Assembly: GCF_000426645.1 (NCBI RefSeq)
Contig: NZ_AUFT01000001.1
Location: forward strand, 558,001-622,000
Direction: 5' to 3'
Source: Nakamurella lactea DSM 19367
GTDB taxonomy: Bacteria; Actinomycetota; Actinomycetes; Mycobacteriales; Nakamurellaceae
Length of the DNA: 64,000 nt
Shown: one piece after another, positions 24,561 through 27,334 of the stretch
How the letters are laid out: each line of letters opens with the position of its first letter
How positions within the stretch are numbered: the stretch's first letter is position 1
The notes under the pieces: model-generated
The model's input: the letters and a program-made list of their open reading frames with translations, nothing else
Told to the model about the DNA's origin: nothing
Databases searched by the model: none
Program-made: the position numbers and the translations under genes

Positions 24561-25046
24561 TCACTCCCTGCCGGCCGGCCGCCCGGTCGCGACATCGTCG
24601 CGCCAGGCGTCGAGTATGTCGTTCTGCAGGCCGAACATCTCGCGTTCCTCTTCTGGCTCCGCGTGGTCGTAACCCAACAGGTGCAGCACGCCGTGCACCG
24701 TCAGCAGGTGCAGTTCGTCGTCCAGCCCGTGGCCGGCCTGCTCGGCCTGGGTGGAAGCGACTGCCGGGCAGAGCACCACGTCGCCGAGCAGCGCCGGACC
24801 CGGCCCGGCCTCGTCCGGCCGTCGTGCCGTGTCCAACTCGTCCATCGGGAAACTCATCACGTCGGTCGGACCGGGTTCGTCCATCCACTTGATGTGCAGT
24901 TCCGTCATCGCCTCGACGTCCAGCAGCAGCAGGCTCAGTTCGGCCTGCGGGTGAATGTCCATGCGGTCCAACGTGTATCGCGCGACGGAGATCAGCGCGT
25001 GTTCGTCGACGCCGATACCGGATTCGTTGGCGACCTCGATCGTCAT
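24561..25046 (-). CDS. ybeY: endoribonuclease YbeY
   Basis: A 161-residue metalloprotein with the family zinc motif [11 protein letters not shown] (118-128; ligands His118, His122, His128) near the C-terminus. YbeY acts in 16S rRNA 3'-end maturation and 70S quality control. The ATG at 25046 overlaps the phoH stop (ATGA), so translation is coupled. The longer open frame upstream is phoH in another frame. Confidence 0.95.
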
Positions 25047-27334
25047 CGGTGTCCTCGAGAGCCGCGGGAGTCGAACCGGGACCGGTCCTGCCGGTCCGGC
25101 GCCGGCGGATTGTCGACGTCCCACCGTTCGTAGGCCCCGACAATGTCGCCGACCAGCCTGTGCCGCACCACATCCGCCGAGGTGAGCGTCGGGAAGGCGA
25201 TGTCCTCGACGCCGGTGAGGATCTCCCGGACGACCTGCAGGCCGGATTTCTGTCCACCGGGCAGGTCGATCTGGGTGACGTCGCCCGTCACTACGATCTG
25301 CGAGCCGAACCCGAGCCGGGTGAGGAACATCTTCATCTGCTCGGGCGTGGTGTTCTGCGCCTCGTCCAGGATGATGAACGCGTCATTGAGGGTGTTGTGG
25401 GTGACCAGGAAATCGTCAGTCACGTACAGCGAATCCGCGGCGGCCACCTGGATGCACAGAGTGTCCTGGACGCCGACCGGTTCGATGGAGTCGATGAAAC
25501 GCATCGGCCGGCCGCCGCCACCAGATGTCGTGAAGAGTTCCTGTTTGCGGGTGAGGCGAAACGGTTCGACGCCGGGCGGCAGTCTGATGTCCAGTACGTG
25601 CGCGTCATGGTTGTACGGCGCGGGGCGGCCATTGGCTCTCCCCGGAGTGCGGGCGTCGGCAGGGCCGGTGCGGGCGTAGACGACGCCACCCAGCGACTGC
25701 ACGAGAAAGACGACATCGTCGCGCAACTGGTCGGAGTTCGTCGTGTACTGGATGCGGCAGGAGCGCCCACGCTGGGTTACCGGGCCACCGTCGGTATCGA
25801 GCAGTCCCTGCAGGATCGCGTGCCGGACGGCAAACGAGTTGTGCAGGTAACTCGTCGGAATGAATCTCGTGGATGAGTTGGCACCGGCAAGTTCCAGCTC
25901 ACGCAGCACCGCAGTGAGGGGGTTTGCGACGATGACGCCGCCACGTCCGCCGCCTCGGCTCCGCAGCGTGTAGTCGTATCCGCCGAGACCGACGACCTCG
26001 ACGCCGTCGCCGCGTAGACCACTCGCATCGAGAGCGTCCTGAAGTCGTTCGACGAGTTCCGGATCCGCTGACGAAAAGGCGGGGGTCGTTGTCGTCGTGA
26101 TACCGCCGTCACCGAGCAGCAGGCCAAGGGCATATGGATCGAGAGGGATGTCCTGCGGCACCATCTCGCACGGACCCATCACAGGCAACTCGTAACGATG
26201 GAAGTGTGCCTGACGCAGCGAGCCGATCATGTCCTTGGTCTGCACAACACGGGAGCGCGTAGCTCGGCCGTCTTCCCGAGTACTCACCTGCCACAGGTGC
26301 TCGCCGCAGGCCAGCGTTGAGGCACCGTCCTGGGTGCTCACCCGATAGACGTCGCGAGGACCCTGCGGATAAACCCCGAGAACTGGCGTAGGCCCGCCGT
26401 CGGAACCGATCACCAGATCGCCCACCCGCAGCGATCCGATGGCGCGGAATCCGTCCGGCGTGAGCACCTTCGCGTTGTAGGGCTGCGCGCGGCCACGCAT
26501 GTATGCCAGCGGTGCGACCTCGATGGTGCCGGCGGCCATCAGCCGCGGGATCGACTCCGGGTCCAACATGTCGTGCAACGCGTCGTACAGCGGCCGCAGG
26601 TAGGGATCGATCTTCTCGTTCAACGTGCCCGGCAGGTAGCCGAGCCGCTCGCCGGCCTCCACCGCCGGCCTGGTCAGGATGATCCTGGTGACCTGCTTGG
26701 CCTGCAGGGACTGGACCGCTTTGGCCATTGCCAGGTATGTCTTGCCGGTACCGGCCGGGCCGATCCCGAAGACCACGGTGTGCTTGTCGATGGCGTCGAC
26801 GTAGCGCCGCTGGTTGAGGGTCTTGGGCCGGATGGTGCGGCCACGCCGGGAGATGATGTTGAGTCCGAGTACTTCGCTCGGGCTCTCGGCTCCCGACGCA
26901 TGGGCTCCGGCGTTCTCGGCGGTCGCAGTGGCGTCCAGCATGCCGACGGTGCGGCTGACGGCGTCCTCGGTGAGCACCGATCCGGACTCCTGCAGCGCGA
27001 TCAGCTCCTGCAGCACCTTCTCGGCGAAGGCGACATCGGCGGCCGAACCCTTCAGGGTGATCCGATTGCCCCGCACGTGGATGTCGGCGGCCAACTGCTG
27101 CTCGAGCCGACGCAGGATCACGTCCCGGGAGCCGAGCAGCCCGAGCATTGCCCTCTCGTCGGGGACGACTACGGCTGATTCGGTGGGTCCAGAGGCATTC
27201 TTCGACCGTCGTGGCGTTGCCACCGAGGTGTCGACCGCCTGTGCGAACGGGTCCTGACCGTGGGAGAGACCGCGATCGCTCGCGGCCGAACTGGTGTCCG
27301 GCACCTGGGTCGTTGCCTGCTTCCTGCCCTGCAC
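25043..27334 (-). CDS. phoH: PhoH-family ATPase interrupted by an intein
   Basis: The reading frame is 763 residues, against about 350 for PhoH proteins, because 365 residues of intein lie in frame. The mature extein is residues 1-282 plus 648-763. It contains an N-terminal RNA-binding-like domain (about 60-115), P-loop GPAGTGKT (192-199) and, after the intein, Walker [10 protein letters not shown] and the sensor motif [12 protein letters not shown]. PhoH is an ATPase linked to RNA metabolism and is commonly operonic with ybeY, as here. Start is GTG at 27334; other starts further in are possible because the first 55 residues are low-complexity. Splicing must occur for the ATPase to be complete, since the intein separates Walker A from Walker B. 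Confidence 0.93.
25394..26488 (-). other. in-frame intein in PhoH, class 3 features with LAGLIDADG endonuclease
   Basis: Residues 283-647 of the phoH product. The insertion is between RGR282 and T648 (consensus PhoH MRGRTLNDAF). The intein begins with Ala283 ([14 protein letters not shown]) rather than Cys or Ser. Block B is ACGEHLWQV with His346 and Trp348, block F has Cys627 (DTLCIQV), and block G is FLVTHN with Thr645, His646, Asn647. Trp-Cys-Thr at these places is the WCT triplet of class 3 inteins, which use the block F Cys instead of residue 1. Two LAGLIDADG-like blocks, [12 protein letters not shown] (401-412) and [11 protein letters not shown] (508-518), indicate a homing endonuclease. 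+1 residue is Thr. Confidence 0.92.

Follow-up and report, generated by a model that had tools for sequence, protein, structure and literature searches.

What interrupts the phoH gene of Nakamurella lactea DSM 19367, and does the interrupting piece leave the protein, move between genomes or serve the cell? The stretch analysed, called the window below, comprises 64,000 nucleotides (assembly GCF_000426645.1, contig NZ_AUFT01000001.1, positions 558,001 to 622,000). A phoH (ybeZ-type) precursor frame was found on its minus strand at 25043..27334 (763 codons from a GTG start at 27334), and 365 residues of it (26488–25394, minus strand) are an insert that is almost certainly a mobile intein of class 3, interrupting a PhoH ATPase of the YbeZ type. 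PF02562 (PhoH; Pfam) matched the precursor in two stretches flanking the insert (E 4.4e-89). The N-extein (26489..27334, minus strand; PhoH residues 1–282, ending MRGR) was delimited from the frame and by comparison with intein-free PhoH; the C-extein (25043..25393, minus strand; residues 648–763 and the stop) begins with the segment that carries Walker B. A first-pass annotation, made by a model from the letters alone, had placed the insert between RGR282 and T648 of a 763-residue frame, and these coordinates stand; it had also put the insert exactly ahead of Walker B, which is only close, the DE of ILDEAQN being residues 657–658, nine beyond T648. That splicing would restore an otherwise split PhoH ATPase, as it further proposed, follows from the position of the insert: splicing would be needed for a continuous ATPase domain.

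The class of the intein (25394..26488; all its parts lie on the minus strand) was assigned from its residues. Class 3 inteins carry a triplet of W at block position B12, C at F4 and T at G5 (PMC5050341). In intein numbering the window copy has Trp66 (B12; 26291..26293), Cys345 (F4, the class 3 nucleophile; 25454..25456) and Thr363 (G5), together with His64 of block B (26297..26299), Thr363-His364-Asn365 at the end of block G (25394..25402) and a nucleophilic Thr at +1; position 1 is Ala, so no Cys or Ser nucleophile stands there. Precursor His346, Trp348, Cys627, THN 645–647 and T648 correspond to intein 64, 66, 345, 363–365 and +1, and the residue numbers given in the first pass (Ala start, THN end, His346, Trp348, Cys627, Thr645) are right. 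The predicted fold is clearly that of the hedgehog/intein (Hint) family; its N-terminal part with linker covers intein 1–116 (26141..26488) and its C-terminal part intein 311–365 (25394..25558), both boundaries being approximate.

Relatives were sought in 397 genomes of the order; at least 52 of these (the window's included; the count is a lower bound, with no more than 5 candidates scored in each genome) hold a PhoH intein at the same site. The relatives at this PhoH point in at least 51 other genomes gave blastp identities of 45–70%, and four of them are shortened. In total 132 PhoH inteins (116 distinct) were gathered, namely the 52 from the order and the best 80 of 388 genome_contigs relatives; the labels of the records that hold this element include 18 named actinobacterial families. 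His64, Trp66, Cys345, Thr363, His364 and Asn365 are each invariant (116/116 distinct inteins); Ala1 is present in 115/116 and Thr at +1 in 131/132 copies. The next eight weaker matches taken (L086–L093) include none in PhoH.

Two copies of this collection are unusual. The sole exception at position 1, from Streptomyces sp. CC208A (L162), combines Ser1 with the W-C-T triplet, thereby blending features of two intein classes, 1 and 3. A contig labelled Candidatus Melainabacteria (L135) clusters with Pseudonocardiaceae in the extein tree and again in the intein tree; the label is probably a binning error.

Intein-free sites are common in the genus: the insert is present in 2 of 17 Nakamurella genomes (the window's included) and absent in 15, and in all 15 intein-free congeners PhoH is unbroken across the insertion point, reading PLAYMRGR-(T or S)LN(D or E)A(F or Y)IILDEAQN with T in 14 and S in one (L011). 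The joined DNA flanks of the window were identical to those of the 14 congeners other than L011, which was left outside this comparison, at 47 to 58 of 60 bases (58 of 60 in L010), and the window extein is 69–83% identical to the PhoH of all 15. Since relatives stand at the same PhoH point in at least 51 other genomes and the protein is unbroken in every intein-free congener, the insert is not a chance event.

Between the splicing parts lies a LAGLIDADG homing endonuclease domain (intein 117–310, boundaries approximate; 25559..26140). LAGLIDADG_3 (PF14528, Pfam) matched the insert above its cut-off (E 2.8e-9), and two motifs were found, whose aspartates Asp127 (26108..26110) and Asp233 (25790..25792) align with PI-SceI Asp218 and Asp326, respectively; they are retained in 110/116 and 112/116 distinct PhoH inteins. 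Selection was estimated from 38 non-overlapping pairs of relatives of 80–97% identity, none of which contains the window copy. The ratio of nonsynonymous (dN) to synonymous (dS) substitution rates was 0.03 to 0.42 for the endonuclease part (38 pairs), so the endonuclease of the relatives is under purifying selection; for the N-terminal splicing part the ratio was 0.01 to 0.26 (37 pairs computable), and dN was larger in the endonuclease part in 33 of 38 pairs. The endonuclease of the window copy is probably working, as the first pass had suggested from two LAGLIDADG blocks, the basis for this copy being its intact frame and motifs. Four inteins (L082–L085) are shortened to 257–328 residues, with at least one LAGLIDADG motif damaged and the splicing residues intact, and appear to be stages in the loss of the endonuclease; two full-length inteins (L074 and L078) have lost the first LAGLIDADG aspartate. 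The analysis confirms that a conserved site of PhoH holds a class 3 intein, and the empty, full and endonuclease-decayed copies together form a natural series well suited to the study of homing.

By analogy with the known class, Cys345 would attack the Arg282–Ala1 bond after translation, the N-extein would be transferred to Thr+1, and Asn365 would cyclise with the aid of His364; the expected products are a continuous PhoH of 398 residues and the free 365-residue intein. The latter would act as a LAGLIDADG endonuclease, cutting the intein-free phoH site and so spreading by homing.

This account draws on the sequence, the insertion site, the invariant residues, the predicted fold, the empty sites and the disagreeing intein and extein trees. 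Several points weigh against it. Hint models (Pfam) matched the insert weakly, below their cut-offs (Hint_2, E 0.0021), though the predicted fold is clear; NCBIfam models of intein-bearing DnaB, GyrA, Tes and RecA matched only in part, with scores well short of the cut-offs, and neither collection by itself names a class. One copy of another family of the order (L060, G018:C1) has all the class 3 residues, yet Pro at +1 (THN-PLND); lacking the +1 nucleophile it may not splice, or a base call may be wrong, and not every PhoH intein copy need splice. The extein tree was a quick one with long-branch warnings, and its difference from the intein tree was not formally tested. Finally, G+C at third codon positions (GC3) is 0.75 in the window intein and 0.87 in its extein (extein, ybeY, corC and era span 0.82–0.89); of the 132 copies, 129 have a lower GC3 in the intein than in the extein, and the window ranks 11th lowest, so a low GC3 of the intein is by itself no sign of recent arrival. 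The class 3 assignment made in the first pass, and with it a LAGLIDADG endonuclease that is probably intact, is supported by the residues, their family-wide conservation and the predicted fold.

What maintains the intein in the cell is a separate matter. A purely selfish element, splicing fast and unconditionally, persisting by homing and bringing the cell no benefit, is a very probable explanation. Presence is patchy (2/17 Nakamurella, at least 52/397 in the order), the endonuclease is under purifying selection in relatives, and in L082–L085 it has decayed while the splicing residues are intact. Intein and extein trees disagree as well: Promicromonosporaceae inteins cluster with those of Micromonospora and near kin (support 99 in one tree, 100/99 in the second) and Quadrisphaera inteins sit among those of Geodermatophilaceae (99; 98/99 in the second), while the exteins of both lie outside the Micromonosporaceae and Geodermatophilaceae extein groups (each 100); the Thermoleophilia copies have very distant exteins and inteins that are 64–66% identical. 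The apparent disagreement is the pattern expected from horizontal homing and gives signs of it. In the tree, inteins from other families lie nearer to the window intein than its congener's intein does; separate gains within Nakamurella are not claimed, the approximately unbiased test not rejecting both inteins as one clade (p 0.466). Patchy presence and signs of horizontal spread can be accommodated by a selfish homing element that has no regulatory role; nothing direct speaks against such an element, and an added regulatory effect would be compatible with it.

That the intein gates PhoH activity, as was proposed in the first pass, is only a possibility. In its explicit form the intein would be a post-translational switch, oxidants or metals slowing the splicing and active PhoH appearing only under permissive conditions; this would add to the class 3 assignment without displacing it and is unlikely. 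A partner for Cys345 could be Cys61 (block B position 7, three residues ahead of the active-site histidine; 26306..26308), just as Cys118 and Cys48 pair in the DnaB intein. Both the Cys48–Cys118 disulfide and zinc block a related class 3 intein (PMC6195587, PMC7360933); in DnaBi1 of Mycobacterium smegmatis the disulfide inhibits though the crystal shows the thiols 11–12 Å from each other (PMC6195587). The difference from DnaBi1 at block B position 7 (Asp62 there, Cys61 in the window intein) may matter. Cys occupies this position in 96/116 PhoH inteins and in only 6 of 28 other class 3 frames (Asp 13, Gly 7, Ala 2), the latter being fetched loci that match nearly the whole intein and include a few duplicates of one locus or near-identical contigs. 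The residue is, however, Ser in 18/116 and Thr in 2/116, also in some non-mycobacterial PhoH inteins, so that Cys is not essential to the lineage; the position matches the Thr of class 1 TxxH, and a small C, S or T side chain there may simply help catalysis; and 15 of 17 Nakamurella do without the intein. It is slightly less likely still that in most PhoH inteins outside mycobacteria the CxxH.W cysteine would form, beside the block F cysteine, a redox trap restraining a ribosome-assembly ATPase under oxidative stress. Should the nucleophile prove to have the block B cysteine as its redox partner, PhoH inteins would add a further natural example of conditional splicing in class 3, the host gene here being one connected with ribosome assembly.

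It is very improbable that the insert is dead and never splices, with an inactive PhoH whose place is taken by a second PhoH-family protein (present in this genome at G000:C10:172547-173158): all splicing residues are retained in an open frame, the extein keeps the identity to intein-free PhoH given above, and the second protein, being a distant paralogue (about 31% identity) listed also in 14 of 16 other congeners, is no special replacement.

The setting of the class 3 intein agrees with a YbeZ-type PhoH: the PhoH ATPase domain stands on either side of the insert, and genes for YbeY, a CorC-like CBS protein and an Era-like GTPase lie downstream. PhoH/YbeZ adjoining ybeY and era is a published neighbourhood (PMC10582724), and in Escherichia coli YbeY is an interaction partner of YbeZ (PMC5101352). 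LAGLIDADG_3 was found at one place only in the genome, the PhoH intein, and a protein search (E 0.01) gave no second relative of the intein there.

Among known systems, the yeast VMA1 intein PI-SceI is a Cys1 (class 1) intein with about 20% identity to the window intein. Phage class 3 inteins, such as that of Mycobacterium phage Phrappuccino gene 2, are similar over the full length and share the Trp-Cys-Thr (WCT) triplet and endonuclease motifs; identity of phage and viral inteins to the window intein is at most 43% among the matches listed (best 40 of 544 phage records; 14 viral contigs). A phage source of the PhoH intein was considered and rejected: blastp matched the PhoH extein to the intein-bearing frame in none of the 14 viral contigs (one of eight viral scans), nor to the intein frame of GX15bay, the sole PhoH-annotated record among the best 40 of 544.

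Some of these records deserve mention in their own right. The PhoH-annotated gene of GX15bay (MK557849.1; L094, 2026-4848), which holds a class 3 intein, is sited between terminase and portal genes; it looks like a portal-type protein, and the PhoH name seems wrong. Phrappuccino gene 2 (L095) is DarB-like antirestriction in RefSeq and terminase in its GenBank record, and its class 3 intein has 41% identity, the highest among the phage records listed. Two near-identical viral contigs (L176 and L177) each carry two class 3 inteins that differ from one another and lie in separate open frames.

The M. smegmatis DnaBi1 and M. chimaera DnaB1 class 3 inteins appear to share the splicing fold and WCT active site of the window intein; they have 27% identity to it over the splicing part (VIA-align) and lie in another host gene. 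Asp62 of DnaBi1 corresponds to Cys61 of the window intein, and DnaBi1, unlike the latter, has no endonuclease (PMC6195587). Nearest are the mycobacterial PhoH inteins. Class 3 inteins in PhoH of M. fortuitum and M. xenopi are included in a published alignment (PMC6195587), and PhoH of M. smegmatis also contains an intein (PMC7360933); host protein and class by WCT triplet are the same as in the window. No paper testing the splicing of any PhoH intein was found in the literature searched, where most subscription papers fell outside coverage. Five named Mycobacteriaceae copies, the published ones themselves being outside this comparison, have the insertion site and splicing residues in common with the window intein, and at block B position 7 all five have Ser in contrast to the Cys of the Nakamurella copy. 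The window intein is a further copy of an element already known from mycobacterial PhoH.
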